From: Thermoproteota archaeon
GTDB lineage: Archaea; Thermoproteota; Thermoprotei_A; EX4484-217-1
Reading direction: 5' to 3'
Assembly: GCA_029258915.1 (NCBI GenBank)
Contig: JAPDJU010000002.1
Span: forward strand, 62,001 to 126,000
DNA: 64,000 nucleotides
Below, one piece after another: positions 3,358-50,033 of this stretch; within the stretch, counting starts at the first letter, position 1; every line of letters begins with the position of its first letter. The notes beneath the pieces are model-generated. The model saw only the letters and a list, made by a program, of their open reading frames with translations. It made no database searches and was not told the origin of the DNA. Position numbers and translations under genes: made by a program.

Positions 3358-4197
3358 TTAGTAAGGAGTGCAGTGTTTGCTTAGTATTTTATTTATCTCT
3401 TCCTCTAATTCCTTATATTCTAGTATAGAACATCTTTCAGTGTTCCAAGTAGTACGCAAGTATTTTCCTTTGTAAAGAATTTCTGCTATTTTTAGCTCTA
3501 ACTTAAGGGGTTTATCTAGGTAAGCTTCTACTTTAAGTGCTTCTTCATAGCCCGAAATAAGTGCTTCAATGACTTCTCTCATAGAAGCCTTCGTTTTAAG
3601 CAAATCATTTAAATTGGCTACCCTATATTTTACTGGATTTATTTTTCTAGTGAACGGTTTATTCTTAGGTATTTTCAGCAACTCCCTCAACATGTTTAGG
3701 TTAGCATTTACGAGTAGGGAGCCATGTAGAAATAATATGTTCCAGAATAGGGTTGCAGCTGTGCCTGAAACCTTTCCGTTTTCGACAACAATGTCATTTA
3801 TGTTTTCTACATAAGGGTTTACACCTAATTTCTTTAAGGCTATTAATACTCCACTTAAAAGCTTAGAGTAAATGTAATCTATTGGTTTTTCAATTTTTTC
3901 TTCAGGCTTAACCACTATTGAGTAGTTTACGTTGCCAAGATCATGGTATACTGCGCCGCCGCCGGTAAATCTACGGATAATAGGTACTTTGAATTTCCTA
4001 GCTAATTCCACGTTCACTTCGTCTGCTACATTTCTAAGATAACCTACGACTATGGCTTCACTATTCCTCCAAATTCTTAGACAATCATCTTTAACAATAC
4101 CTGCAGCTCTAACTCTAACAAAAGCTTCTTCAAAAGCCATATTGAACCATGGATCATCAGGTGTTTCGAAAAGCAATACTCTTAGACGCTTCAACAT
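3358..4197 (-). CDS. lplA: lipoate-protein ligase A family protein (copy 1)
   Basis: A 279-residue ligase of the biotin/lipoate transferase fold. Recognisable elements are RRFTGGGAVYHD (the family's R-R-x-[TS]-G-G-G-x-V-[YW]-H motif), NDIVVENGKVSG with the catalytic lysine in GKVSG, and HGSLLVN. The family activates lipoate or octanoate with ATP and transfers it to a lysine of lipoyl domains. I start at ATG 4197, preceded by GTGAGG at suitable spacing, rather than the upstream ATG 4233. About 80 C-terminal residues follow the catalytic core and could act as an accessory domain. A second, shorter family member lies at 49290. Confidence 0.8.
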   Translation of the reverse strand: MLKRLRVLLFETPDDPWFNMAFEEAFVRVRAAGIVKDDCLRIWRNSEAIVVGYLRNVADEVNVELARKFKVPIIRRFTGGGAVYHDLGNVNYSIVVKPEEKIEKPIDYIYSKLLSGVLIALKKLGVNPYVENINDIVVENGKVSGTAATLFWNILFLHGSLLVNANLNMLRELLKIPKNKPFTRKINPVKYRVANLNDLLKTKASMREVIEALISGYEEALKVEAYLDKPLKLELKIAEILYKGKYLRTTWNTERCSILEYKELEEEINKILSKHCTPY

Positions 4198-4341
4198 AAT
4201 TAACCTCACAGCATAAAATTGTATAGTATTCATTTAAGTTTTCTTCATAACCTTAGCCTAGGCGCTTAAAGGATGAAGAGAAATAGAAGCATTTATAACC
4301 ATGGAATATAGGAGACTTTAAATGGACTTAAGACACCTTAT

Positions 4342-5417: not shown

Positions 5418-6449
5418 ATGGCAGCTATTCCACGAAAGCTAGCTGTTATCATTATTGTAGCTATAATAGTTGCTGGAGTTATTGGATGGGCTTTAGGAGC
5501 TTTAACAAGGCCTACTCCCTCACCAACACCTAAGAGAATTAAAATGGCTTTCATATTTCCTGGGAGTATAACTGATACTGCATGGAATGAAGCTGGATAT
5601 AGAGCTATGGAAGCTTTTAGGGGTAAGCATCCTGAAGTAGAAGTTGCATGGGTACAAGGGGTTTACGATCCTGCTGCAATAGAGCCAACTATTAGAAGCT
5701 ATTGTGAACAAGGATACAACTTAATTGTTGGCGTTGGCTTTCAATATGGAGAACCTATGGCTAAACTTTCTGAAGAATACCCTAACGTATACTTCTTAGC
5801 TATTGCTGGTGCACCCCAATATGTTGGCCCTAGAGTTAGTGTAGCTGATGTCAGAACAGATCAAAGCGGATTTATTGTAAGTTATTTAGCAGTTAAAATG
5901 TCTAAGTCTAAACATGTAGCTTTCGTTGCAGGCATGGCTGTTGCAGAGCTTTCTCGTAGCGAAATAGGTCAGAGAAAAGGAATAGAGTATGCAGGATACG
6001 ATCCTGATGCAGCGCTCCATGTACATTACGTAGGAGACTTCCATGATGTGCCAGGAGCGAAAATGGCAACAACAGCTCTTATAGAAGAGCATGGCGTTGA
6101 TGTAGTTAAAGCTATGGGTGACGGCGTCCAATTGGGAGCAATATCTGCTGCTAAAGAAAAAGGAGTATATGCCATGATGAGCGGCACATATCATCCAGAA
6201 ATATATCCTGAAGGAATGCTAATGTATGAAGTATGGCACTGGGAAATAGTGTTTGAAGAATGGTATAATGACTATGTAGCAGGGAAGTTGGAAAAGGAAG
6301 GAGGAAAGGTATACTGGCTTAGCCTTGAAAACGGAGGATTAGAAATAATTCTTGGCGGAGGCTTAGTACCTCCAGAATTACAGAAGGAGATACAAACACT
6401 AATAGAGAAGATTAAAGCTGGGGAAATAGATACAGGGTTTAAACCATAA
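5418..6449 (+). CDS. BMP-family ABC transporter substrate-binding protein
   Basis: A 343-residue protein with an N-terminal hydrophobic anchor (residues 8-30) and a proline/threonine linker (RPTPSPTPK), typical of archaeal binding proteins tethered to the membrane. The body has the BMP/PnrA pattern: FIFPGSITDTAWN (the family's G.i.D.sfN element), then ADVRTDQSGF and VKAMGDGVQLGAI. BMP proteins mostly bind purine nucleosides. It heads an operon with one duplicated ATPase and two permeases (6517-10079), so the whole importer is encoded here. The exact ligand cannot be read from sequence alone. Confidence 0.85.
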   Translation: MAAIPRKLAVIIIVAIIVAGVIGWALGALTRPTPSPTPKRIKMAFIFPGSITDTAWNEAGYRAMEAFRGKHPEVEVAWVQGVYDPAAIEPTIRSYCEQGYNLIVGVGFQYGEPMAKLSEEYPNVYFLAIAGAPQYVGPRVSVADVRTDQSGFIVSYLAVKMSKSKHVAFVAGMAVAELSRSEIGQRKGIEYAGYDPDAALHVHYVGDFHDVPGAKMATTALIEEHGVDVVKAMGDGVQLGAISAAKEKGVYAMMSGTYHPEIYPEGMLMYEVWHWEIVFEEWYNDYVAGKLEKEGGKVYWLSLENGGLEIILGGGLVPPELQKEIQTLIEKIKAGEIDTGFKP

Positions 6450-6516
6450 AAACTATAAATTATCTTTTTCTCTATAGTCCTAGAAACCATAGGGAGTTTA
6501 TGGGGATTAATAGTTT

Positions 6517-8085
6517 ATGGAGAAACCAATAGTATCTATGAGGAATATAGTTAAAAGATTTCCTGGCGTAGTGGCTAATGACCATATAGACCTTGACGTT
6601 TTCAAGGGAGAAGTCTTAGCTCTTCTCGGGGAGAATGGTGCCGGTAAAACAACGCTAATGAACATACTTTATGGCCTATACAGAGCTGACAAAGGAGAAA
6701 TATACATCGACGGTAAAAATGTCTATTTTAAATCACCTAAAGATGCTATTGCACATGGCATAGGTATGGTTCATCAGCAATTTATGCTTATAGATGAACT
6801 TTCTGTTGTCGAAAATATAATGTTAGGCCTTAAAGAATACGGTTTAGTCTTAGACCTTAAAGAAGCAGTTAAGAAAATAAATAAGCTAGCACGAGAAATG
6901 GGATTTAAAATAGATCCGTGGCAGAAAGTATGGCAGCTTTCAGCAGGTGAAAAACAAAGAGTAGAAATTTTAAAAGCTATTTTCAGAAACGTTAAAGTCT
7001 TAATCTTGGATGAACCTACATCCGTTTTAACACCTCAAGAAACAAGAGAGCTGTTTAAGATCATAAAGAAACTTATAGCTAACAATATAGCAGTAATATT
7101 TATCTCGCATAAGCTACATGAAGTTATGGAAATTGCTGATAAAATAGTTGTTTTAAGAAAAGGTAAGGTTGTAGGCAAACTCAGCAGGGAACAAGCTACA
7201 CCACAATTGCTAGCAAAACTTATGGTTGGAAGAGAAGTTTTCTTAGAAATAACCAAGAGACCTAAGAAACCAGGCCATGTTGTTTTAGAGGTCAAGAATC
7301 TTAAAGCATTAAGTGATAAAGGTGTTTTAGCGTTAAAGGGGATATCGTTTAAGGTTAGAGCAGGCGAAATTGCCGGTATTGCAGGAGTTGCTGGTAACGG
7401 GCAGAAAGAACTTGCTGAAGTAATTTATGGTTTAAGAAAACCATTAGAAGGTAAAATATATCTCTTTGGTAAAGATGTAACCCATAAAGATATTTATGAA
7501 CGTATAAGAATAGGTATTTCACTAATACCTGAAAACAGGTTAGGTTTAGGTATAGTTGGAGAATTTTCTGTCGCTGAAAACCTTATTTTGGAAAGAATAG
7601 ATGAACAACCATTTTCCCTAAACATACCATTGCTTTCTAGGCTGAATATCAAGAAAATTAATGATCAAATGCTTTTAAAATACTCCAGGGAGCTTATAGA
7701 AAAATTTAGCATAGTAACACCATCACCTTTCGCTAAAGCTAAAACACTGTCTGGAGGTAATATTCAAAGACTTATCTTAGCTAGGGAGTTAGGGAGAAAA
7801 CCTGGTTTCATAATAGCTGAAGAACCAACTGCAGGACTTGATGTTAGTGCAACAGAATATGTTAGAAAATTATTATTAGAAATGAGAGAGCAGGGATACA
7901 GTATTTTACTTATTTCAGGCGACCTATCTGAAGTTCTATCCTTAAGTGATAAAGTTATGGTTATGTATGAAGGTGAAATAGTGGGTGCTTTTAGACCTGA
8001 AAAGGTCAGTTTAGATGATGTGGGGTTAATGATGACAGGTGTGAAAAGAATGCCTAGAGAGGTGATTGAGAAAATATGGGACTAG
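6517..8085 (+). CDS. ABC transporter ATP-binding protein, duplicated domain, BMP/nucleoside type
   Basis: A 522-residue protein with two ABC domains. The first has Walker A GENGAGKTT, signature LSAGEKQR and Walker B LILDEPTSVL. The second has a degenerate P-loop (GVAGNGQKE), signature LSGGNIQR and FIIAEEPTAGLD. One intact and one degenerate P-loop is standard for the ribose/YufO/BMP class. It powers nucleoside-like uptake with the two permeases that follow. Its 3' end overlaps the next gene by about 10 bases, indicating co-transcription and coupled translation. Confidence 0.88.
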   Translation: MEKPIVSMRNIVKRFPGVVANDHIDLDVFKGEVLALLGENGAGKTTLMNILYGLYRADKGEIYIDGKNVYFKSPKDAIAHGIGMVHQQFMLIDELSVVENIMLGLKEYGLVLDLKEAVKKINKLAREMGFKIDPWQKVWQLSAGEKQRVEILKAIFRNVKVLILDEPTSVLTPQETRELFKIIKKLIANNIAVIFISHKLHEVMEIADKIVVLRKGKVVGKLSREQATPQLLAKLMVGREVFLEITKRPKKPGHVVLEVKNLKALSDKGVLALKGISFKVRAGEIAGIAGVAGNGQKELAEVIYGLRKPLEGKIYLFGKDVTHKDIYERIRIGISLIPENRLGLGIVGEFSVAENLILERIDEQPFSLNIPLLSRLNIKKINDQMLLKYSRELIEKFSIVTPSPFAKAKTLSGGNIQRLILARELGRKPGFIIAEEPTAGLDVSATEYVRKLLLEMREQGYSILLISGDLSEVLSLSDKVMVMYEGEIVGAFRPEKVSLDDVGLMMTGVKRMPREVIEKIWD

Positions 8086-9137
8086 AAATAAAGTTTATCG
8101 AGAGAGAATTACATCCTATAATGTACATTATTGTACCATTGGGAGCATTTTCGCTAGCGTTTCTTTGCGGAGGCGTTTTAATGTCATGGGCTGGTGTAAA
8201 CCCTATTTCTGGTTATGAAGCATTTATTTCTGGCGCTATAGGTTCCCCTGTAAAGTTTGCAGATACTCTTGTCAGAACTACGTCTTTTCTTCTCATGGGT
8301 GTAGGTTTAGCATTTGCATTAAGGGCCAGGGTATTTAATATCGGTGCTGAAGGACAATACATCATGGGAGCTATTGTAGGAACATGGGTTGCTTTACTGC
8401 TTCAAGAAAATCTTCCACCATCAATAACCATTATTGCATCCTTAACCATGGCTATGATTATTGGCGGGTTGTGGGCAGGATTTGCAGGGTATTTAAAGGC
8501 AACACTAGGAATAAATGAAGTAGTACTAACAGTTATTATGAATTGGCTTGCTTTCAAACTTCTCCAATGGCTTTTAAGAGGCCCTCTGAAAAACCCTCTT
8601 TCAGAAATGTGGCCTATGTCTCCTCCTATTCAAGCTAAAATACCTGTGATAATTTCCGGAACAAGGCTTCACTTAGGCTTCATATTAGCAGTATTAATAG
8701 CTATCGGAGGCTACTTCCTAATGTTTAAAACAAACTATGGCTTTAAACTTAGAGTTGCAGGTATGAACCCTGATGCAGCAAAATATGCAGGATATGATGT
8801 TAGAAAAATAATAATTTCTAGTATGATCTTAAGTGGCAGCTTAGCAGGGCTTGCTGGAGCTATAGAAGTTCTAGCAGTATATCATTTCCTATATGAAGGT
8901 ATTTCAATAGGTTTAGGATATACTTCAATAATAGTTGCTTTAGTAGGTAAGTTGCATCCATTAGCTATAATACCTTCTGCATTAATGTTTGGAGCACTAT
9001 ACAATGGCGTAGTATATTTGCAATCAGCATTAGGAGTTTCATATACGTTATCTAAAGCAATGGAAGGTATGATTTATCTTTTCGTTCTTATTTCCGAGGT
9101 ATTCTTGAAATATAAAATAAGAATTATTAGGAGATGA
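8076..9137 (+). CDS. BMP-type ABC transporter permease 1
   Basis: A 353-residue polytopic membrane protein of the branched-chain-type permease family (BPD_transp_2), with the conserved FNIGAEGQYIMGA segment near residue 90 and GLAGAIEVLAVYH near residue 265. It resembles YufP/NupP-type permeases that pair with BMP binding proteins. It overlaps the ATPase gene upstream and is followed after 9 bases by the second permease, so the two probably form the heterodimeric channel. Confidence 0.85.
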   Translation: MGLEIKFIERELHPIMYIIVPLGAFSLAFLCGGVLMSWAGVNPISGYEAFISGAIGSPVKFADTLVRTTSFLLMGVGLAFALRARVFNIGAEGQYIMGAIVGTWVALLLQENLPPSITIIASLTMAMIIGGLWAGFAGYLKATLGINEVVLTVIMNWLAFKLLQWLLRGPLKNPLSEMWPMSPPIQAKIPVIISGTRLHLGFILAVLIAIGGYFLMFKTNYGFKLRVAGMNPDAAKYAGYDVRKIIISSMILSGSLAGLAGAIEVLAVYHFLYEGISIGLGYTSIIVALVGKLHPLAIIPSALMFGALYNGVVYLQSALGVSYTLSKAMEGMIYLFVLISEVFLKYKIRIIRR

Positions 9138-9146
9138 TATGCTACA

Positions 9147-10079
9147 ATGATACCATTAGAAACGTTGTCTTCAATAATAAACCTCGCAATAGCTATGTCG
9201 ACACCGTTAGCTCTTGCAGGTTTAGGTGAAGTTTATTCTGAACGTTCAGGTGTCCTAAACTTAGGTGTTGAAGGAATAATGCTTATGGGGGCTTTCACAG
9301 CTTTTCACTTTACATACATTACAGGAAACTTAATTGTAGGATATTTTACTGCAATTCTTGTAGGATTAATTTTAGGCTTAATTAAAGCAACACTATCTAT
9401 ATCGCTTAAAGTAAACCAGGTTATAGCTGGTATGGGAATTTACTTTTTAGGTTTTGGTCTCTCAGATTTTCTATATAGGACTATTTATGGTGCAGAATAT
9501 GTTACAATACAGAAATCTATTCAAGTACCTATACCCATACTGTCTTCGATACCAGTAATAGGTCCAGCATTATTCAAACAATACCCTGCCATATATTTAA
9601 CATATATGCTACTACCTTTAGCATGGTTTATACTTTACAGAACACGTTGGGGTCTCGCATTAAGAGCTGTAGGTGAAAATCCGAGAGTAGCAGATACTTT
9701 AGGCGTTAACGTTTTCCATGTCAGATACTTAGCCGTGCTCTTTGGCTCAGCTATGGCAGGGTTTGCAGGCGCATTTCTATGTTTAGGTGTTGTAGGGTTA
9801 TTTTATGAGAACTTAACGTTTGGAATGGGGTTTATTGCCATAGGGCTAGTATACTTTGGGAAATGGGATCCGCTTAGAATGTGGGCGGGATCACTAATTT
9901 TTGGTACTGCATGGTCTATTTCAACATTTCTACAAGACTACTTTACCAAGGCAGGGTATCCTACAGCAACATACTTTTTACTAATGATACCCTACATTGT
10001 AGTAATAATATCGCTAATAGCTGTTTCTAGAAAAGCTAAAGCACCTGCATCCTTAACTATACCTTACACTAGAGAATGA
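9147..10079 (+). CDS. BMP-type ABC transporter permease 2
   Basis: A 310-residue membrane protein with the family motif GVLNLGVEGIMLMGA near residue 35 and LRAVGENPRVADTLG near residue 175. It resembles YufQ/NupQ permeases and should pair with the preceding permease. It is the last gene of the importer operon; the next 250 bases are non-coding. Confidence 0.85.
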   Translation: MIPLETLSSIINLAIAMSTPLALAGLGEVYSERSGVLNLGVEGIMLMGAFTAFHFTYITGNLIVGYFTAILVGLILGLIKATLSISLKVNQVIAGMGIYFLGFGLSDFLYRTIYGAEYVTIQKSIQVPIPILSSIPVIGPALFKQYPAIYLTYMLLPLAWFILYRTRWGLALRAVGENPRVADTLGVNVFHVRYLAVLFGSAMAGFAGAFLCLGVVGLFYENLTFGMGFIAIGLVYFGKWDPLRMWAGSLIFGTAWSISTFLQDYFTKAGYPTATYFLLMIPYIVVIISLIAVSRKAKAPASLTIPYTRE

Positions 10080-28387: not shown

Positions 28388-28437
28388 GGGTTTAATAGAC
28401 CTTCATAGACATTAGTAGTTTTTGGTCTATCAAACCC
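28388..28437 (-). ncRNA. hairpin at tnpB 3' end, probable omega-RNA 3' region
   Basis: GGGTTTAATAGACC (28388-28401) and GGTCTATCAAACCC (28424-28437) form a 14-base inverted repeat with one mismatch and a 22-base loop, straddling the tnpB stop codon. In TnpB systems the guide RNA scaffold is encoded by the 3' end of tnpB plus the adjacent element end. This hairpin is a good candidate for that scaffold. The guide would come from sequence just beyond the element end. Confidence 0.45.
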
Positions 28438-29750
28438 TTGGGGTTCATTAGGCTCGGTCTCCCTCTTGGGTTCATCGGGAGCATATCATTACCCTTGCCC
28501 CCTTTCGTGGTAACCCCACTCCCCCTCCTCATCTGCACCTTCCATAGAGAGATCATGGGTTTAATCACTACTCTATAGAAGGTACTCGGGGAAGGAGTGA
28601 AACCATACATCTTAAGGTATACATTTATCGAACCACATAATTGCCTATCTAAAGTTAGTCCACATCTACTACATTTAACCATCTGCCCCTTTCGGAGCTT
28701 TAACATCCTTCCTCCACACATGGGGCAGGTAGATGAAGTATTCCTAGGATTAACAAGCTTAACTCTACCCTTATAGCTCATGAGCTGAACTATCTGCTTC
28801 CAGTTCTGCTTAGCAACCTCTCTATTGTGCTTCTTTCTCCTATTATACATTCCCTGTTTATCTAGATCCTCGAAACCATGTATAGCGTTTGGGTATTCTC
28901 TAGCTAGTTCTGTAGTTAGCTTGTGTACAAAGTCCTTAGATCTATTTCTCTCCCTCTTACCGTGTTTTGAGATTACAGATTTAAGTGATGTTTTCCTAGA
29001 AGATTTACTCTGAGCCTTTTTCCTCTTAACCTCATGTACTCTATGTATGTGGTAGAGATGTCTTAAGTCAACTCTTATCCATCCATATCTTGGTGAGAAT
29101 CCGTCTAGAGTATATTTATTCAAATCCCAGCCTATGTACTCAGTTGTCTTCCTCTCTTCTAACGGTTTCCTAAATGTTATTATCAGTTCATCTTCCTTGA
29201 GGATTAGCTCTCCTAGCTCACAATCTTTAACTCTATTCTTGAACCACGCTCTTGATATATCGAACTCTAGATAGCGCCTCCACGCCTCGATCGTAATTCT
29301 AATCTTCCAGTCTTCAAACTTGTATAGAGTTTCCTTAACCCTGACAAACTTTCTCCTGACTACTGGCTTTTTCCTTCCCCTCCTACCCTTTAAGTAGTTC
29401 CTTCTCCACGAATTTAGAATTGAATAAGCAGTCTTAATAGCCGAATCAACATAGTGGGAAGCATATTTCCAATCTCTAAGTAGGCTATTCCTCAGATCCC
29501 TCTTAAACTCTCTAGACTTCGGAATTATTGGAATCAGTCTCTCGACATAACAGTACTTTCTTATCTTCCTCCTCCCCTGCTTAATCACATAGTGGTTTCT
29601 CCGTTTCTTCTCAATCCACTCTATGTTATCCCAAATCATGTCTACTGCTTTTTGAAGTAGATACTTGTAGCTACTTAAGAACTCTCCAATATCGTAATCA
29701 TGTTTTATCTTATAGCTAAGGATCGCGTATGAGCTTCTTTGCACCTTCAA
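28392..29750 (-). CDS. tnpB: TnpB RNA-guided nuclease (IS607 type)
   Basis: A 452-residue TnpB. RuvC-like acidic residues are all present: D209 in [10 protein letters not shown]294 in [10 protein letters not shown] and D368 in [12 protein letters not shown]. The zinc finger between the last two RuvC parts has C342/C345 (TCPMCG) and C360/C363 (CSRCG). It starts at TTG 29750, overlapping the former tnpA reading frame. The basic N-terminal half would bind the guide RNA. The protein looks functional even though its partner recombinase is interrupted. Confidence 0.9.
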
Positions 29751-30333
29751 CTACCTTCTTATATTTATGACCCCTCATTCCATAGAGTTTACCGGCAAAA
29801 TGAGAAATTATCGTAATAAGGTCTTCAACGAGTTCTTCTTAAGGAGTCTTCTCCTTCCTATTTATTACTATGATTTCAGTTCCATAACTTTTGAAAAATT
29901 GCTCAAGAGTTTTAAACCCAAATCTTACCAACCTATCTGAATAAGCTGCGATAACCTTAGAAACTTCCTTGTTCATAACCATTCTTAGTAGTTTTTGGAA
30001 ACTCCTTCTATCTTCCTTTAATCCTGAGCCAATGTCTTTCAGGATCTCTATCTCCCAGCCTCTCTCTTTAGCATAGTTCTTGATGAGTTCTATTTGTCTC
30101 TCTAAATCATCCTTTTGAGTATATGACGAGACTCTAGTATAACCTATGATTTTCCTCTTTTCATGAATCCCTAAAATACGCTTTATTTCTGATTCGGGAA
30201 CCCTCCTCTTTCCACCTACAGTCCTAACACACCTAATCTTACCTTCCTTATCCCACCTCTGAATTGTTCTTACCGCTACCCCTAGCAGCTTTGATGCCTC
30301 TTTCATAGTATAAAGTCGTTTCATGTCTATCAA
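29716..30333 (-). pseudogene. tnpA: IS607-type serine recombinase tnpA with internal stop
   Basis: The open part (164 residues, ending at the TAA at 29839-29841) has a MerR-like helix-turn-helix ([20 protein letters not shown]) and the serine resolvase core [17 protein letters not shown] (catalytic Ser 69). Directly after the TAA the same frame continues for 40 codons as [20 protein letters not shown]...[11 protein letters not shown], the conserved C-terminus of this family, ending at 29716. So a single nonsense codon, probably CAA or GAA changed to TAA, cuts off the last fifth. Length with the tail restored (205) is normal. Confidence 0.85.
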
Positions 30334-41217: not shown

Positions 41218-42396
41218 ATGGTTAAGGGTTTAGGTATTGATCCAGGTACTATGAGCTTTGATATTGCCGTTGTTGAGAATGATAGAGTTGTTTGGGAAAA
41301 ATCTATAAGCACTATTGAAGTTGCTAAGAATCCTTCAGTCCTTGTTAAAGGTGTTGAAGAAGCTGGTAAAGTAGATGTTATTGCTGGTCCTTCAGGTTAT
41401 GGAACACCAGTAGTATGGAATGAAGACATAATAGATCCTAGGGTTTTTGCTACTAAAATTCTTCTCTTAACAGATGAGGAAGATATTAGGAGAGGTGTTG
41501 AACGTGGAGAGTTTGGAATGGGTGTTTACGATGCTTTAACAAAAGTTGTTGTAGAGCTTTGGCGTAGAAAACTGCCTGTATGCTATATTCCATCAGTTAT
41601 CCTACTACCTACCGTCCCATCTTATAGGAAGATAAATAAGCTTGATATGGGTACAGCTGATAAAATGGCTATAGCTGTTCTTGCAGTTTACGATCAAGCT
41701 TCAAGACTTGGACTAAATTATGGTGAGACAAGCTTTATACTTGTAGAAATGGGTTTCGGCTATAATGCAGTAATGGCTGTTAAAAAGGGTAAAATTATTG
41801 ACAGTTTAGGCGGAACACTTGTACCAACAGGTTTCTTAACAGTAGGTCCTCTAGACGCAGAATTAGCTGTTGCAGGTAAAATGTGGGAGAGATCTGATGT
41901 ATTTTATGGAGGAGTATCTACAATATGTAGAACATTAAACGTCGAAGAAGCTGTTAGAAAATATGTTGAGGAAATAGAGCCATTTAAATCTGCTTTCGAA
42001 TCCATGTTTGAGTCTTTAGAAAAATCGGTAAGATCTCTTTTAGTATCTTTGCCTAACCCTAAAGAAATAATCATTTCAGGAAGGTTAACAAGAATACGGG
42101 ATATTAGGAAAGAAATTGAAAGAAGGCTTGGAAAAATAGCTCCTGTAGTAAAAATAAAGGGCCTTAAAGGGGCTAAGATATCTAAGGAAGCAGCTCAAGG
42201 ATACGCTATAGTAGCTGAGGGGCTTGGAGGAGGATATTTCAGAAAACTCATTGAACACATGGAGATACTTAAAGCTAAGGGAACAGTTATGAGCTGGGTT
42301 CACCATCCACGCCTCATGAAAGCTAAAGAAGAACTTAGAGAAGCCTATAGAAAAAGTGTAAAATCTGAAAAACAAAAAATATTCGACATTACATAA
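41218..42396 (+). CDS. DUF1464 family protein (ASKHA/butyrate-kinase-like)
   Basis: A 392-residue protein opening VKGLGIDPGTMSFDIAVVEND, the phosphate-1 motif of the actin/hexokinase/acetokinase fold, with FILVEMGFGYNAVMAV as a second nucleotide-binding segment. It matches archaeal DUF1464 in length and layout. Activity unknown; a small-molecule kinase is plausible. It lies 80 bases upstream of the homocitrate-synthase operon on the same strand and could be read with it. Confidence 0.65.
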   Translation: MVKGLGIDPGTMSFDIAVVENDRVVWEKSISTIEVAKNPSVLVKGVEEAGKVDVIAGPSGYGTPVVWNEDIIDPRVFATKILLLTDEEDIRRGVERGEFGMGVYDALTKVVVELWRRKLPVCYIPSVILLPTVPSYRKINKLDMGTADKMAIAVLAVYDQASRLGLNYGETSFILVEMGFGYNAVMAVKKGKIIDSLGGTLVPTGFLTVGPLDAELAVAGKMWERSDVFYGGVSTICRTLNVEEAVRKYVEEIEPFKSAFESMFESLEKSVRSLLVSLPNPKEIIISGRLTRIRDIRKEIERRLGKIAPVVKIKGLKGAKISKEAAQGYAIVAEGLGGGYFRKLIEHMEILKAKGTVMSWVHHPRLMKAKEELREAYRKSVKSEKQKIFDIT

Positions 42397-42478: not shown

Positions 42479-43708
42479 GTGTATTTAAAATATATTGAGA
42501 AAAATGTATTTGCTTACAGTGAGTGTTTAGCCTTGGTGCATGCTGTGGGTAATGTTGCTGTTAGTCCTTACAATAAAGCAAGTAAATGTAAGGTTCATCC
42601 TGTTATAATATATGATACTACACTTAGAGATGGTGAACAGTGTCCTGGAGTCTCATTTACTATTAGTGAAAAGCTTGAAATAGCTAAAATGCTTGACGAG
42701 CTTGGTATTCCTCAAATTGAAGCCGGTTTTCCCGTTGTTTCTGAAGAAGAAAGAAAAGCGATTAAAGCAATTACTAATGAAAACTTAAGGGCAGATATTC
42801 TTGTTCTATCTCGTTCACTTATAGGGGACGTTGATGAGGCTTTAAAATGCGATGTTGACGGTGTTCTAGTTTTCATGCCTCTCCCTGAGGCGCATCTTAG
42901 AAGAAAACTTAAAATAACATATGGGAAAGCCGTTGAAATGGCCGTTAAAACAGCTGAATACGCTAAAGAGCATGGGCTTTTTGTTCAAGTAAGTGTTGAA
43001 GATGCTACTAGAACTCCTTTGCAAAGGCTTTTAGACTTTTTCAGTAAAGTCGTTGAAGTAAAACCTGATAGAATAGGGTTAGCAGATACTGCAGGCTGCA
43101 TAACTCCTTCAGGTATGAAGTATTTAGTTAGAAAGATTAGGAGGAACATTGATGTTAAAGTTGCTGTCCACTGCCATAATGACTTCGGACTTGCTGTAGC
43201 AAACTCCTTAGCGGCTTACGAGGCTGGTGCTGGGGCAATATCTGTAACTGTTAATGGTATCGGTGAAAGAGCAGGTAATGCTGCTTTAGAAGAAGTTGTT
43301 ACAGCACTGTACTTTTTATATGGTGTTGATTTAGGTTTAAGACTTGAACTACTTAAACCTCTTTCAGAGCTTGTAGCTAAACTTTCAGGAATATCTTTAA
43401 ATCCCTTAAAACCTATTGTAGGTGAAAATGCTTTTCGACATGAATCTGGAATTCATGTTGCTGCGGTTCTTGAATACCCTAGAATGTATGAACCATATGA
43501 ACCAAGCCTTGTAGGTAATAGAAGGCAAATAGTTTTCGGTAAGCATTCAGGGCTTAAGGGTATTATTAAGTATTTAGAAAAACAAGGTGTTAGAGTTTCA
43601 AATAAAAAAGCTGATAAACTGCTTAAGTATGTTAAGTCTTTGCACAAAAAATTCATCGATGGAAATGAGTTAATTAACTTAGCTTTAAAGTTTGAGAAAG
43701 AGGTATAA
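42479..43708 (+). CDS. aksA: homocitrate synthase / AksA-type 2-oxoacid chain-elongating synthase
   Basis: A protein of up to 409 residues of the DRE-TIM family: YDTTLRDGEQCPG (46-57), HCHNDFG (231-237) and NGIGERAGNA (259-268). It ends soon after the TIM-barrel linker, so the leucine-sensing domain of LeuA (which brings LeuA to about 500 residues) is missing. ESGIHV (322-327) has the Val of homocitrate synthases, where isopropylmalate synthases usually read IHQ. YEPYEPSLVG also matches AksA/NifV types. It condenses a 2-oxoacid with acetyl-CoA. GTG 42479 is the longest start; TTG 42533 or GTG 42536 are alternatives. First gene of a seven-gene operon. Confidence 0.78.
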   Translation: MYLKYIEKNVFAYSECLALVHAVGNVAVSPYNKASKCKVHPVIIYDTTLRDGEQCPGVSFTISEKLEIAKMLDELGIPQIEAGFPVVSEEERKAIKAITNENLRADILVLSRSLIGDVDEALKCDVDGVLVFMPLPEAHLRRKLKITYGKAVEMAVKTAEYAKEHGLFVQVSVEDATRTPLQRLLDFFSKVVEVKPDRIGLADTAGCITPSGMKYLVRKIRRNIDVKVAVHCHNDFGLAVANSLAAYEAGAGAISVTVNGIGERAGNAALEEVVTALYFLYGVDLGLRLELLKPLSELVAKLSGISLNPLKPIVGENAFRHESGIHVAAVLEYPRMYEPYEPSLVGNRRQIVFGKHSGLKGIIKYLEKQGVRVSNKKADKLLKYVKSLHKKFIDGNELINLALKFEKEV

Positions 43709-43710
43709 CA

Positions 43711-44961
43711 ATGTCTTCAGCTATTGAAAAAATAATTTCAGACCACATAGGCAGAAAAGTACATGCAGGAGAATTCGTTGAAACCCCAATTGACCTAATT
43801 TATTTCCACGATGGAACAGGCATTCTTGTTTTTAAACATTTAGAGGAAATGCTTGTAAAAAAGGTAGGTGATGTTGAATCCATAGTTTTCTTCGATCATT
43901 CAGTACCACCGCATAGCATTGAAGCTTCAACATTGCAAAAGTATGTTTTAGAATCAAGCAGAAAGTTTGGTATATCTAAAATATACTTTATGGGTGAAGG
44001 TATAGGTCACCAAGTAATTCATGAAGAAGGCCATGTTAAACCAGGCCAAATAATTATTGGTGCGGATTCCCACACACCTACCTTAGGCGCTTTAGGTGTT
44101 CTCGCATTAGGTGTAGGAGCTTTAGATGCTGCTTACGGCTTAGCTGCTGGAAAACTATGGCTTAAAGTACCGGAAACACTACTTATTACGGTTGAAGGCA
44201 GAATACCCAAAGGTGTTTATGCTAAAGACATTATATTACATATTATAGGTTCTCTTAGAGCTTATGGGGCTTTAGGTAAAGTTGTTGAATTCTCAGGTTC
44301 TGTAACTGAAAGGCTAAATGTTGATAGCAGATTTACACTATGTAATATGTCTGTTGAAATGGGTGCTGCTTCATGTTTTCAAAAAATAGATGAAAAAACT
44401 ATAAACTACTTAAAGAACTTTGGAGTTTGTGATTTGAGAAAACACTTTTCTGATAAAGACTCTTATGTTGAAGAATACTTTTTCGATATTAGCTCCTTAG
44501 AACCTCAGGTTTCATGTCCTCATAGCGTTGATAATGTTAAATCTATTTCTGAAGTTGAAGGTACACCTGTGGACCAAATATTCATAGGTTCATGCACTAA
44601 TGGTAGGCTTGAAGACCTTGTTGAGGTAGCTAAAATACTTAAAAACGGCAAGGTGAAACCTTATGTTAAACTTATCATTGTTCCCGCTTCCAAGAGAATT
44701 CTTATGAAAGCTATGTCGTTAGGATTAATTGAAATATTTTTGAAAGCAGGGGCTATGGTGGGTGTTCCAGGCTGCGGACCATGCTTAGGTATGCATACGG
44801 GCGTTTTAGGCGATGATGAAGTAGCTATTTCTACTTCAAGTAGAAACTTTATTGGAAGAATGGGTAGTAGGAAGGCTAAAATATATTTAGCTTCACCAGC
44901 AACAGCAGCTGCTTCTGCTTTAACAGGAGAAATAACTGACCCCAGGAGGTTCTTAAAATGA
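43711..44961 (+). CDS. homoaconitase / isopropylmalate isomerase large subunit
   Basis: A 416-residue aconitase-family large subunit. It has GADSHTPTLGALG near residue 117 and three [4Fe-4S] cysteines at 295 (GSCTNG), 355 and 358 (PGCGPCLG). With the small subunit it isomerises the product of the preceding synthase via a dehydrated intermediate. Two bases separate it from the synthase and it overlaps the small subunit by 4. The large subunit alone does not decide between leucine and homocitrate pathways. Confidence 0.85.
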   Translation: MSSAIEKIISDHIGRKVHAGEFVETPIDLIYFHDGTGILVFKHLEEMLVKKVGDVESIVFFDHSVPPHSIEASTLQKYVLESSRKFGISKIYFMGEGIGHQVIHEEGHVKPGQIIIGADSHTPTLGALGVLALGVGALDAAYGLAAGKLWLKVPETLLITVEGRIPKGVYAKDIILHIIGSLRAYGALGKVVEFSGSVTERLNVDSRFTLCNMSVEMGAASCFQKIDEKTINYLKNFGVCDLRKHFSDKDSYVEEYFFDISSLEPQVSCPHSVDNVKSISEVEGTPVDQIFIGSCTNGRLEDLVEVAKILKNGKVKPYVKLIIVPASKRILMKAMSLGLIEIFLKAGAMVGVPGCGPCLGMHTGVLGDDEVAISTSSRNFIGRMGSRKAKIYLASPATAAASALTGEITDPRRFLK

Positions 44962-45446
44962 TTGTTAAGGGCCGTGTTTGGAAATTTGGAGACAACATAA
45001 GTACTGACATAATAATTCCAGGCAAATACCTTAGAACATTAAACTATAGTTTATGGGTAAAACATTTAATGGAAGGATTAGATCCCGCATTTAGCTCTAA
45101 AATCAGAAAAGGAGATATTATTGTTGCAGGTAAGAATTTTGGCTGTGGTTCAAGTAGAGAACAAGCTGTTTTAGCAATAAAACTTGCAGGTATTTCAGCA
45201 GTAGTAGCTGAGTCCTTTGGGTGGATATTCTTTAGAAACGCGATAAATAATGGACTATTAGTTGTCGAATGCCCTAACATTGTAAAGTATGTTGAAACCG
45301 GAGATATTATGGAAATAAATGTAATAGAAGGTTATGTGAAAACGCCTAGGAAAATATTATCAATAAAACCATATCCTAAATTCATAATGGACATTATTAG
45401 TTTAGGAGGGTTAACAGAGTATTATAGGAGGAAAAAACATGGTTAA
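44958..45446 (+). CDS. homoaconitase-type small subunit (YLRT loop)
   Basis: A 162-residue LeuD/HacB-type subunit with [15 protein letters not shown] and [16 protein letters not shown]. The substrate loop reads YLRT at residues 24-27. From memory of work on the Methanocaldococcus jannaschii enzymes, YLRT with Arg 26 marks homoaconitase, whereas isopropylmalate isomerases have a hydrophobic residue in place of the Arg. That favours tricarboxylate substrates (homocitrate and longer) over isopropylmalate. It overlaps both neighbours. Confidence 0.82.
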
Positions 45447-46446
45447 AATAGCTGTTATCCCAGGAGACGGTATTGGACCTGAAATAACAAATGCCGCATT
45501 AAAAGTCTTAGACAGCTTAAACATTAACTTAGAATATGAATTTTTCTACATCGGCTATAGTAGACTTCGCAAAACAGGTGAAGCGATATCAGATGACGAT
45601 ATTGAAGCAATTAAAAAAATAGGAATAGCGCTTATGGCTCCAGTAATTACGCCTTCTCCTAAGGAGGTTAAGAAGTATAGAAGCCCAGTTTTAACACTTC
45701 GTAAAGAACTAGATCTTTATGTCAACCTTAGGCCTGTTAAAAGCTTACCGGGAATACGCAGCATTAGGAGGAATGTGGATATGGTTATTGTTAGAGAAAA
45801 TATTGAGGGACTATACTATGGTGTTGAAGAAAAGTGCGGCAACGGCTATTACGCATTAATGGTTATAACGGAAAAGAATGCTAGAAGACTGGCAAAATTT
45901 GCTTTCAACTATGCTAAAAACCATGGTAGGAAGAAGGTAACTATTGTTCATAAAGCTAATGTTTTAAGGAAAACCCATGGTCTGTTCTTAAAAACATGTT
46001 TAGAGGTAGCTAAAAAATACCCTGAAATAAATGTTGAAGATTTACATGTAGATGTTGCTTCAATGTTTATGATTTTGAAGCCTGAAAAATTTGATGTAAT
46101 AATTACAACAAACATTTTTGGAGATATACTTTCAGGAGTATGTTCAGCACTAATAGGAGGTCCTGGACTTCTACCTTCAGCTAACTTAGGTGATAAATAC
46201 GCAATATTCTCTCCTGCACATGGCTCAGCACCTGACATCGCAGGTAAGAATATAGCTAACCCCATAGCTATGTTTCTTTCAGCAAAAATGATGCTTGAGA
46301 AACTAGGGTTTAACGGTGAAGCAGTGAGAATAGAGAAAGCAATAGTTAAAACGTTAAAAGCAGGAATTAAAACCCTCGATATAGGTGGTAAAGCTTCTAC
46401 AACGGAGTTTACAAAAGCAGTTATCAAGTTCCTTAAGGAGGAATGA
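45439..46446 (+). CDS. homoisocitrate/isopropylmalate-type dehydrogenase
   Basis: A 335-residue beta-decarboxylating dehydrogenase: PGDGIGPEI at the start, SPVLTLRKELDLYVNLRPVK (substrate loop and Arg residues), RENIEGLYYG (catalytic Tyr), HKANVLR (catalytic Lys) and the NAD motif APAHGSAPDIAGKN. It would oxidise and decarboxylate the isomer to a 2-oxoacid one carbon longer. SPVLTLRK resembles AksF-type enzymes more than LeuB. It overlaps the small-subunit gene by 8 bases. Confidence 0.83.
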   Translation: MVKIAVIPGDGIGPEITNAALKVLDSLNINLEYEFFYIGYSRLRKTGEAISDDDIEAIKKIGIALMAPVITPSPKEVKKYRSPVLTLRKELDLYVNLRPVKSLPGIRSIRRNVDMVIVRENIEGLYYGVEEKCGNGYYALMVITEKNARRLAKFAFNYAKNHGRKKVTIVHKANVLRKTHGLFLKTCLEVAKKYPEINVEDLHVDVASMFMILKPEKFDVIITTNIFGDILSGVCSALIGGPGLLPSANLGDKYAIFSPAHGSAPDIAGKNIANPIAMFLSAKMMLEKLGFNGEAVRIEKAIVKTLKAGIKTLDIGGKASTTEFTKAVIKFLKEE

Positions 46447-46453
46447 GTAAACA

Positions 46454-48001
46454 TTGACTATTAGAGTTTCTGAAGCCGTAGTTAAAGTTCTTGAAGACTT
46501 GAATGTTGAAACAGTATTTGGAATACCTGGAAGGTGGGTAAATCCACTGTACATTGCGTTTTCAGAATCAAAAATAAAACATGTGCTTATGAGACATGAA
46601 CAGGCGGCTGCACATGCTGCTGATGGATATGCTAGGGTATCAGGAAAAGTTGGAGTATGCTTGGCCACTGCAGGTCCAGGGGCTTTAGGATTAGTTCTAG
46701 GGATTGCTACAGCATATAAAGACCATGTACCATTACTTGCAATAACAGGTCAGGTTCCTTTAAAGCTTAAAGGAAAAAGGGTCACTGAAGAGCTAAACTT
46801 AGTGAATATTTTTAAACATATAACAAAAATGAGCTTGGAAATAACTAATCCAAGTAAAGCTTATGAACAAATATCTTTAGCCGCCATAGAGGCTCAAAGC
46901 GAATGCCCGGCTCCAGTCCATGTATCTATCCCGGAAGATGTACAGAGAAGTAAAACTTCCATTAGAAAACAACATTATTTCAAAAAACATAGAACTACAC
47001 CAAGAAAAGAAGATGTAGATATAGTTTCTGAAATGCTAAATAAAGCCGAAAAACCGCTGATTTTAGCAGGCCAAGGTGTGCTTTTAAGCAATGCTGAACA
47101 TGAACTCTGGAAGCTAGTTAAGAAAACCAGCATTCCAATTATAACAACACTTATGGCTAGGGGTATCATTCCAGAAGATAACCCTTTAAACCTAGGTTTT
47201 GCTGGATACTATGGGTCTATAGAAGCAAATAAAGCATTTGCTGAAAGTGATTTAGTCCTAGCTTTGGGCTGCAGCCTATCCTACAATACTATGTTCCACA
47301 TAAAACCTAAAGAGAAAACAATAGTTCAAGTAGATGTTAGCGAACATAACTTTAACAAGGAATATGCAACATTAACAATAAAATCAGACGTAAAAACATT
47401 CATCGCTAGGCTTCTAGAAAAAGTTAAGCCGAAAGCAAGAGCTTGGATTAAAGGAGGTAAACAGCAGTATGGGCTAAAAAATGGCAAGGGATTAAGTATT
47501 GCGAAAACACTTAGCAAAGAGCTAAGTAGGAAAACGGTTTTTGTTTTAGATATTGGAGAACACACTTTATGGTCTATTAGTAGTATTAAAGCATATATGC
47601 TAAGAACAATAATACTTCCAGGAAATTTAGCAACAGTAGGTTACTCATTACCAGCAGCAATAGGTGCTAAACTAGCTAAACCTAAAATGAATACCGTAGC
47701 TATAATGGGTGATGGAGGTTTTTATGCATCATCTAGTGAACTTGGCGTTATAAAACAATACAACATACCGATAATGATTGTAGTATACAATAATAGATAC
47801 TATGGTTTAACTAAAAAGTTTCAAGAAAAAATCTATAAGAAAAGTTTTGGCGTCTACCTTGGCGATTTCAGCTGCGCTAAAATAGCTGAAGCATACGGTA
47901 TTTCAAGCTACGTGGTTTCTAAACCCGAAGAACTTAAGGAAATTATACCTAAAAATATCGAAGAACCCTTACTTATTGAGATCACTCTAAGGTCTTCATA
48001 G
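46454..48001 (+). CDS. ThDP-dependent 2-oxoacid decarboxylase/synthase-like enzyme
   Basis: A 515-residue enzyme of the acetolactate synthase/pyruvate decarboxylase superfamily: catalytic Glu 49 in MRHEQAAAHAADGYAR and the ThDP-metal motif GDGGFYASSSE...YNN (419-447). True acetolactate synthases have GPGATN and an FQE loop; this protein has GPGALG (residues 74-79) and KGKRVTEELNL (106-116), with no FQE. No regulatory subunit gene is nearby. I infer it decarboxylates the elongated 2-oxoacid made by the four upstream enzymes. Start is TTG 46454, 8 bases after the dehydrogenase. Acetolactate synthase is the alternative. Confidence 0.7.
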   Translation: MTIRVSEAVVKVLEDLNVETVFGIPGRWVNPLYIAFSESKIKHVLMRHEQAAAHAADGYARVSGKVGVCLATAGPGALGLVLGIATAYKDHVPLLAITGQVPLKLKGKRVTEELNLVNIFKHITKMSLEITNPSKAYEQISLAAIEAQSECPAPVHVSIPEDVQRSKTSIRKQHYFKKHRTTPRKEDVDIVSEMLNKAEKPLILAGQGVLLSNAEHELWKLVKKTSIPIITTLMARGIIPEDNPLNLGFAGYYGSIEANKAFAESDLVLALGCSLSYNTMFHIKPKEKTIVQVDVSEHNFNKEYATLTIKSDVKTFIARLLEKVKPKARAWIKGGKQQYGLKNGKGLSIAKTLSKELSRKTVFVLDIGEHTLWSISSIKAYMLRTIILPGNLATVGYSLPAAIGAKLAKPKMNTVAIMGDGGFYASSSELGVIKQYNIPIMIVVYNNRYYGLTKKFQEKIYKKSFGVYLGDFSCAKIAEAYGISSYVVSKPEELKEIIPKNIEEPLLIEITLRSS

Positions 48002-48047: not shown

Positions 48048-49277
48048 TTGGAAAAATTCGATGTGATAATCATCGGTTCAGGTGCGGGAGGAAGCATTTT
48101 AGCTAAAGAGCTTGCTAGAAAAGGTAAAAATGTGCTAATTCTTGAAAAAGGAAGTACCATAAATGAAGCTGAGGCATTTAAAGCATATGATTTCGTATTT
48201 GCAGGCGTAGATATCTGGCGCATTATAGCAGTAGGAGGAACTACACTAGTATCCTTCGGCAACACTGTCCCAGTATTAGTTGATGAGATCAAAAGCCTAG
48301 GTTTAGATTTAAGAGATAAGATAAACGATTTAATTAAAGAATTAAAAGCTAAACCGCTTCCAGAAAAATTTAGAGGTAAAGGCACAAGAAGATTCATAGA
48401 AATAGCTAAAGAACTTAAATACAATGTTTATTTAATGCCTAAATCTATAGACCCTGAAAAATGTATTGTTCACTGCAAACATTGCACAGCAGGATGTATA
48501 ACAGGGGCTAAATGGAGTGCTCTTAAAGAGCTAAATACTGCATTATCCTTAGGGGCAAAGCTTGTTGATGAAGTAGGAAAAGTAAAGATCATAACATCAG
48601 GAGGTAAGGTGAAGGGTGTAAAATACATTAAAAATGGCGTAGAGAAAGAAGCTTATTCGTCGGTGGTTGTTTCCTGCGCAGGAGCTTTAGGAACACCTGA
48701 AATATTGTTTTCAGCAGGTTTAGAAGAAGGCATTGGTGAAAACCTTTTTGTTGACATATTTGTAACTGTAGGAGGTATTGTTGAAAACATAGAGCTTAAT
48801 AGAGAAATCGATATGCAAGCATATGTGAAATTGGAAAACGGTATTTTAACACCATTTTACAGTGTTTTCCTAAGACAACGTTACATATGTAAAGGTATTT
48901 CAGTAAGACCTAAAGACATAATGGGCATTATGGTGAAAATAGCTGATACACTATCAGGAACTGTGAGTAAGGAAGGAAAGATTTCTAAACCATTAACAGC
49001 TAAAGATATTGCCATATTAGAGGAATATTCTGAGAAAGCTGCTGAAATATTAGAAATAATGGGCGCTAATCCCAAATCAATAATTATTACACATCCAAGA
49101 GGCGTACATCCGGGGGGAACAGCAGCTATAGGTAAGGTTGTCGATAAAAACTTAGAAACAAAAATTGAAGGACTATATGTAGCGGATGCCAGTGTCCTGC
49201 CTAAAGCACCAGGGGCACCACCAATACTAACAATAATGGCTATAGCAAAACATTTAGCTAAAAATCTAAATTTCTAA
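48048..49277 (+). CDS. GMC-type FAD oxidoreductase with a four-cysteine cluster
   Basis: A 409-residue flavoprotein. N-terminal FAD motif VIIIGSGAGGSILAKELA (6-23) with E33 in LILEKG, and AVGGTTLVSFGN (61-72). It ends VHPGGTAAIG... EGLYVADASVLPK, the GMC C-terminal signature; the usual active-site Asn (NP) is replaced by APP, so its acceptor chemistry may differ. Cysteines 139, 143, 146 and 150 (CX3CX2CX3C) suggest an iron-sulfur cluster or structural zinc. In this operon it could oxidise or reduce the aldehyde formed by the ThDP enzyme. Start TTG 48048. Confidence 0.65.
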   Translation: MEKFDVIIIGSGAGGSILAKELARKGKNVLILEKGSTINEAEAFKAYDFVFAGVDIWRIIAVGGTTLVSFGNTVPVLVDEIKSLGLDLRDKINDLIKELKAKPLPEKFRGKGTRRFIEIAKELKYNVYLMPKSIDPEKCIVHCKHCTAGCITGAKWSALKELNTALSLGAKLVDEVGKVKIITSGGKVKGVKYIKNGVEKEAYSSVVVSCAGALGTPEILFSAGLEEGIGENLFVDIFVTVGGIVENIELNREIDMQAYVKLENGILTPFYSVFLRQRYICKGISVRPKDIMGIMVKIADTLSGTVSKEGKISKPLTAKDIAILEEYSEKAAEILEIMGANPKSIIITHPRGVHPGGTAAIGKVVDKNLETKIEGLYVADASVLPKAPGAPPILTIMAIAKHLAKNLNF

Positions 49278-49289
49278 CAACGAGTAAAA

Positions 49290-50033
49290 ATGGCTGAAAC
49301 ATGGAGACTTATAGTACTAAAACCGGTAGATTGCTATACAAGATGCTCTATTGATGAGGCACTGCTTAAATCTGTTGGTGAATGTAAGTCACCCAATACG
49401 CTGAGATTTCTTTCTATAAAACCTCCATCAGTAAGCATAGGGTATTTTCAAAAAATAAGAGATGTGGTGAATGTTGAGGAATGTAAGAAACTAGGTATAG
49501 ACATTGCTAGGAGGCCTAGCGGTGGAGGAGCAATATATCAAGATTATAGAGGAGAAATAACATATGCTATAGTAATTAAGTCTCATGACAAATTAGTTAA
49601 AGGATTAGATATTGAAGAAACATATAACAAACTTCTACAGTGGCTCATTAATGCCTTAAGAAAACTAGGGTTAAATGCTAAACATAAACCTCCAAACGAT
49701 ATCGTAGTTAATGGAAAGAAGATATCTGGAAATGCACAGTCAAGAAAGTATGGGGCAATACTTCAACATGGAACAATACTTATAAAAACATATAGGAATG
49801 TTATGGCTAAAGTTTTAAAGGTAAATGCTGAAAAACTGGAAAAAATAACCAGTATAGAAGACGAACTAAAAAGGAAAATAGATAGAAATATGTTAATAAA
49901 GGAATTAGCCAAAAGCTTCAAGGAAACATACGATATTGAGCTAGTAAAGTCTGATTTCACAGAATACGAGGCTAAGCTAATCGAGGAATTAAAGAAAAAA
50001 TATTCAAGTCATAAATGGATTTTTAAAAGATAA
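49290..50033 (+). CDS. lplA: lipoate/octanoate-protein ligase family protein (copy 2)
   Basis: A 247-residue ligase-fold protein: RRPSGGGAIYQD, NDIVVNGKKISGNAQSR (catalytic Lys in GKKISG) and LQHGTILI. It is the last gene of the operon, 12 bases after the flavoprotein. The family joins lipoate or octanoate to a protein lysine, or in some cases transfers it from another carrier. Differs from copy 1 (3358) in the C-terminal part and lacks its extra ~40 residues. Location suggests that the acid made by the operon is its substrate; this is inference. Confidence 0.8.
   Translation: MAETWRLIVLKPVDCYTRCSIDEALLKSVGECKSPNTLRFLSIKPPSVSIGYFQKIRDVVNVEECKKLGIDIARRPSGGGAIYQDYRGEITYAIVIKSHDKLVKGLDIEETYNKLLQWLINALRKLGLNAKHKPPNDIVVNGKKISGNAQSRKYGAILQHGTILIKTYRNVMAKVLKVNAEKLEKITSIEDELKRKIDRNMLIKELAKSFKETYDIELVKSDFTEYEAKLIEELKKKYSSHKWIFKR

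Follow-up and report, generated by a model that had tools for sequence, protein, structure and literature searches.

We find that the small subunit (SSU) gene of an aconitase-family isomerase in a non-methanogenic member of the Thermoproteota probably encodes a homoaconitase-type protein that belongs to a coenzyme-B-type operon for 2-oxoacid elongation and decarboxylation. The original prediction had favored tricarboxylate intermediates over leucine synthesis on three sequence signs, namely, the YLRT loop of the SSU, an IHV motif in the neighboring synthase, and the missing LeuA regulatory domain of that synthase. This conclusion holds well, with phylogeny, synteny, and the absence of IlvD as its main support rather than the motif, but two of the three signs proved not to be diagnostic. 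The wider operon and the lack of MCR in the host lie beyond those earlier observations.

Operon structure and host genome

The SSU gene is the fourth in a packed run on the + strand of the window (the whole stretch of 64,000 nucleotides that was analyzed), extending from a DUF1464 gene through an LplA-type ligase gene (Table 1). The large subunit (LSU) and SSU genes overlap by 4 bases, the SSU and dehydrogenase genes overlap by 8 bases, and the six core operon genes are all intact, packed, and in frame. Translation of the synthase probably begins downstream of the listed GTG, and the link of the DUF1464 gene to the operon is unproven. Promoter and terminator scans gave no excess over shuffled sequence.

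Table 1. Genes of the operon and other features of the window
Feature	Coordinates	Strand	Remarks
DUF1464 butyrate-kinase-like protein	41218..42396	+	directly upstream of the synthase, 82 bp gap
Homocitrate-synthase-like synthase, AksA-like	42479..43708	+	without LeuA regulatory domain
Aconitase-family LSU, AksD/HacA-like	43711..44961	+	best PDB match 4kp2
Homoaconitase-type SSU (probable), AksE/HacB-like	44958..45446	+	YLRT loop, residues 24-27
Homoisocitrate/isocitrate-type dehydrogenase (IDH), AksF-like	45439..46446	+	best PDB match T. thermophilus enzyme
ThDP (TPP) enzyme, operon-specific subfamily	46454..48001	+	without RF[SAD]DR motif
GMC-fold FAD oxidoreductase	48048..49277	+	four invariant Cys (139, 143, 146, 150)
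LplA-type lipoate/biotin-family ligase	49290..50033	+	12 bp behind the GMC oxidoreductase
Second LplA-type lipoate ligase	3361..4233	-	31% identity to the operon ligase
PnrA-type ABC uptake system	5418..10079	+	substrate-binding protein, ATPase, two permeases; of a kind that typically imports nucleosides
IS607-like element, TnpB-like protein	28392..29750	-	Cas12f1-like TNB domain
IS607-like element, MerR-type/serine-resolvase protein	29839..30333	-

The closest counterpart of this locus is an operon of the Methanomethylicia with the order synthase-[MMP4]-LSU-SSU-(IDH)-TPP enzyme-[MMP11]-GMC oxidoreductase. It occurs in families f18 and f45, whose named records are Candidatus Methanosuratincola, Methanomethylicus, and relatives. 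The gene order of the window agrees with it, and the shared genes have their closest relatives in this operon. Unlike the methanogen versions, the window gave no match to MMP4 or MMP11, and it carries the DUF1464 gene directly upstream and the LplA-type ligase gene downstream of the GMC gene. The genome G158, in comparison, has the full operon including MMP4, MMP11, and the dehydrogenase. Searching the whole host genome for MMP11, we obtained nothing beyond a TiaS-like partial domain match.

The GC content of the operon (0.359) is close to that of the window (0.352 ± 0.007), and its codon use is within the host range; the related loci of G158 (0.51) and G131 (0.28) differ in GC. A contaminating contig or a very recent transfer is therefore unlikely.

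The host genome (1.6 Mb in 15 contigs, 99.66% complete) has one SSU of the LeuD/HacB family and one HMGL-type synthase above cut-off. We found no IlvD in it, while IlvD was present in 19 of the 41 genomes searched, and no match to PF02249 (MCR alpha). LysW was also not detected in the host, although this absence is not absolute because the model scores archaeal members low; weak LysW matches do occur in relatives and methanogens. Users of both lipoate and biotin are present in the host, which encodes GcvH, GcvT, GcvPA, GcvPB, and a 2-oxoacid dehydrogenase E1/E2 pair with a lipoyl domain on the one side, and a biotin carboxylase, a biotin carrier protein, and a biotin-ligase-family protein on the other.

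Isomerase, synthase, and dehydrogenase

The SSU is a 162-aa aconitase C-terminal-domain protein of the LeuD/HacB family. Translating the ORF, we found YLRT at residues 24-27 with the arginine at residue 26, exactly as predicted. In the alignment with solved structures, the homoaconitase MJ1271 (2pkp) has YLRT; the loop reads YLVY in MJ1277 (3vba), an isopropylmalate/citramalate isomerase, and YNLT in the P. horikoshii isomerase (1v7l). MJ1277 is, however, the nearest solved SSU by score, and the window protein resembles MJ1277/LeuD in fold, length, and best single PDB score. It differs from MJ1277 in the loop and in its clade, and the leucine context is missing in the window.

We built an SSU tree from which the loop columns had been removed. 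The window SSU fell in a 17-member clade (support 100/99), where it is sister to the G158 SSU (support 99/94). The remaining 16 members come from MCR-bearing Methanomethylicia, and the window SSU is 58-67% identical to the SSUs of their operons. All 17 have YLRS or YLRT as the loop. Among the 84 aligned SSUs, YLR[ST] was found in 17/17 members of this clade and in 3/67 others, which are MJ1271 and two Methanobacteriaceae copies; the match is thus not fortuitous. One of the latter two exceeds the curated HacB2_Meth cut-off (302 bits), and the two copies support the link of the loop to homoaconitase. A single origin of the YLR loop was not rejected, nor was it established (p-AU 0.15 for all 20 rows and 0.37 for the clade plus MJ1271).

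The loop had been taken to point to homoaconitase; it is a good mark of the coenzyme-B-type clade but not of homoaconitases in general. SSUs located 2-3 kb from lysW, which are expected to be the homoaconitases of lysine synthesis, carry YLVL, YLVI, YLTL, YLVY, or YKAK. In the MCR-bearing family f42 the loop is YLSL and YLR copies are absent, and HLRF occurs in one member of a leucine-like clade. We dropped the labels "YLVY = leucine" and "YKF = lysine" for the other paralogues, since lysW adjoins YLV and YLT copies. Eight loci (L033, L034, L039, L042, L044, L045, L048, and L049) hold another paralogous set, in which YKF-type loops go with a divergent TTLRDG[QM]Q synthase and, in most of the loci, with a dehydrogenase; it possibly represents a Re-citrate-type route. 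The genomes G002, G003, and G006 carry this set and gave no IlvD or LysW matches.

The partner enzymes gave the same picture. The LSU tree placed the window in the same 17-row clade (support 99), and the synthase tree (97, or 99 for an 11-row set) and the dehydrogenase tree (99) were also concordant with the SSU tree. The LSU carries the cluster-ligand motifs GSCTNGR and PGCGPC, and its best PDB match is the large subunit of the MJ homoaconitase. The best PDB matches of the synthase and the dehydrogenase are a homocitrate synthase and the homoisocitrate dehydrogenase of T. thermophilus, respectively, while isocitrate dehydrogenase models score nearly equal to the homoisocitrate models on the dehydrogenase.

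Both synthase features on which the prediction had relied are present, IHV at residues 325-327 (in the 409-aa reading) and a domain content of HMGL-like plus HCS_D2 in Pfam with no LeuA regulatory domain. Neither discriminates as assumed. The IHV motif is shared by the AGIHVHGVL synthases of relatives, and at one locus (L046) such a synthase adjoins acetolactate synthase and IlvD genes. Synthase frames of about 375-410 aa lacking the LeuA domain are common in this class. The operon-type synthases share ESGIHVAA[VI][LMI] (ESGIHVAAVL in the window), as compared with AGIHVHGV[LV] in the others.

Curated NCBIfam equivalog models gave scores below their cut-offs. The window SSU reached 189 and 180 bits against 230, the 189 bits being with HacB2_Meth, and the Methanomethylicia copies likewise remained under the HacB2_Meth cut-off (192-207 bits). 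The values were 485 against 550 for HacA_Meth and 394 against 540 for AksF2_Meth.

ThDP enzyme and GMC oxidoreductase

The ThDP enzyme (515 aa) has its nearest homologues in families f18 and f45 (37-47% identity), and most genomes of these families also hold an ordinary acetolactate-synthase-like copy. It shares 35-38% identity with the large subunit of acetolactate synthase, as well as the ThDP fold and the cofactor motifs. In contrast, it is shorter, and a GCSLSYNT-type sequence takes the place of RF[SAD]DR. Every operon-type ThDP enzyme has other residues in place of this acetolactate synthase motif but keeps the ThDP motifs, which supports a decarboxylase role. All 17 other genomes with an operon-type ThDP enzyme have MCR (17/17), whereas the host has none.

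Sequence searches of the PDB with the GMC protein returned weak matches only. Its predicted model (pLDDT 95.6) had as best fold matches fructose and FAD-glucose dehydrogenases, enzymes that contain an Fe-S cluster. The four cysteines of the window protein are invariant in 21 sequences, an arrangement that fits a putative Fe-S cluster. Across the phylum (398 genomes), the GMC gene is present in 27, MCR in 27, and both in 22 (Fisher p about 8e-27, a figure that overstates the case as the genomes are not independent). The GMC gene alone is no marker of the operon, because orthologues without the operon were found in other archaea and bacteria.

Several loci show the GMC gene in other settings. 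Two nearly complete MCR-less genomes (L167 in G090 and L168 in G268) have the oxidoreductase with no adjoining operon. In the MCR-bearing family f42 (loci L169-L172, L219, and L226), the GMC gene is apart from the elongation genes. In G003, which is of the same order as the host, a GMC relative (L175, 126-1352) is split over three frames, which may reflect a pseudogene or an error of assembly.

Proposed pathway and alternative explanations

In coenzyme B synthesis, a single synthase, isomerase, and dehydrogenase serve the three rounds that convert 2-oxoglutarate to 2-oxosuberate, which is then turned into a semialdehyde, and about two unknown proteins act after the known elongation enzymes (PMC3087415). 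The window likewise has a single such set, and its linked synthase, both isomerase subunits, and dehydrogenase are of the methanogen clade, as expected for an aks system. It shares with the coenzyme B isomerase (MJ1003/MJ1271, AksDE) the YLRT loop, an aconitase-family LSU, and an AksF-like dehydrogenase. It differs in the sub-threshold equivalog scores, the MCR-less host, and the linked lipoate-ligase-like gene.

We propose that the LSU and SSU would form an isomerase for tricarboxylates, acting on homocitrate and probably on longer homologues. Together with the synthase and the dehydrogenase, it would elongate 2-oxoglutarate to 2-oxoadipate, 2-oxopimelate, and 2-oxosuberate. The ThDP enzyme would then decarboxylate the elongated 2-oxoacid (2-oxosuberate), giving an omega-semialdehyde whose oxidation state may be changed by the FAD/Fe-S-like GMC enzyme. 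The end product in the MCR-less host could be coenzyme B itself, a different C7 thiol, or a C7 acid destined for biotin or lipoate, and such an acid might be used by the adjacent LplA-type ligase. Substrate and end product are inferred, as are the reactions of the ThDP and GMC enzymes and the chain length, which is not readable from sequence. Counted against this proposal are the low equivalog scores, MJ1277 as the nearest solved SSU, and the lack of MMP4 and MMP11 in the operon and of MCR in the host, along with a non-methanogenic Methanocellales genome that lost AksA-F together with MCR (PMC11176372).

The same genes could be assigned to amino acid synthesis. In one reading, the subunits would be the isopropylmalate isomerase of the leucine pathway and the ThDP enzyme an acetolactate synthase, in agreement with resemblances at the family level (to LeuCD and to acetolactate synthase) and with the PDB score of MJ1277. 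This is very unlikely, as no IlvD was found in a nearly complete genome, the ThDP enzyme has lost the RF[SAD]DR that acetolactate-synthase-type sequences keep, and the SSU falls outside the YLVY/HLKY clades, grouping instead with the YLR[ST] clade of methanogens. We also consider quite unlikely a homoaconitase for a single elongation round in the alpha-aminoadipate/LysW pathway of lysine. The chemistry would be the same and this is the sole homoaconitase-type set in the genome; however, lysine synthesis has no place for the ThDP and GMC enzymes, the lysW-linked SSUs of methanogens are a different paralogue with other loops, and LysW was not found in the host, with a model that is weak for archaeal members. 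A route from citrate to 2-oxoglutarate for glutamate (Re-citrate synthase, aconitase, and isocitrate dehydrogenase) is unlikely. The nearly equal isocitrate dehydrogenase scores speak for it, and Re-citrate synthase belongs to the same synthase family, as far as a reference cited in PMC3087415 indicates. But order mates that possibly have such a route use the YKF-loop paralogue and a DGQQ-type synthase, and the ThDP and GMC neighbors would be left unexplained.

Since the host lacks the methane-making enzyme, the operon set must either make something else or be a leftover of a methanogenic past; with MCR missing, and the MMP4 and MMP11 of the operon as well, coenzyme B has no obvious use in this organism. 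That the genes are a decaying relic with no selected function now seems quite improbable to us. The loss of MCR, MMP11, and the operon copy of MMP4 and the broken oxidoreductase relative in G003 would agree with decay, yet the six core genes are intact and packed with host-like composition and codon use, and the comparable MCR-less methanogen relative has lost its Aks genes (PMC11176372).

Returning to the coenzyme-B-type elongation operon, the conserved ThDP and FAD enzymes are candidates for the late steps of coenzyme B synthesis. In the literature, we found nothing matching on these late steps or on such an operon outside methanogens. More tentatively, and with less than even confidence, we suggest that a non-methanogenic member of the Thermoproteota uses the pathway for the C7 block of another cofactor, either a thiol resembling coenzyme B or, for biotin or lipoate, a pimelate-type acid that is activated by the LplA-type ligase of the operon, and that the ThDP enzyme and the Fe-S GMC enzyme are the decarboxylase and the redox enzyme of coenzyme B synthesis in the Methanomethylicia.

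In summary, across MCR-bearing Methanomethylicia the operon joins a specific ThDP subfamily and a specific FAD oxidoreductase to the genes for elongation, so that the gaps in coenzyme B synthesis become directly testable. Its presence in an MCR-less host shows that such a set can persist after methanogenesis is lost, or serve without it. This bears on the question of whether Thermoproteota lost methanogenesis, and on the source of medium-chain acids for biotin and lipoate in archaea without fatty-acid synthesis.
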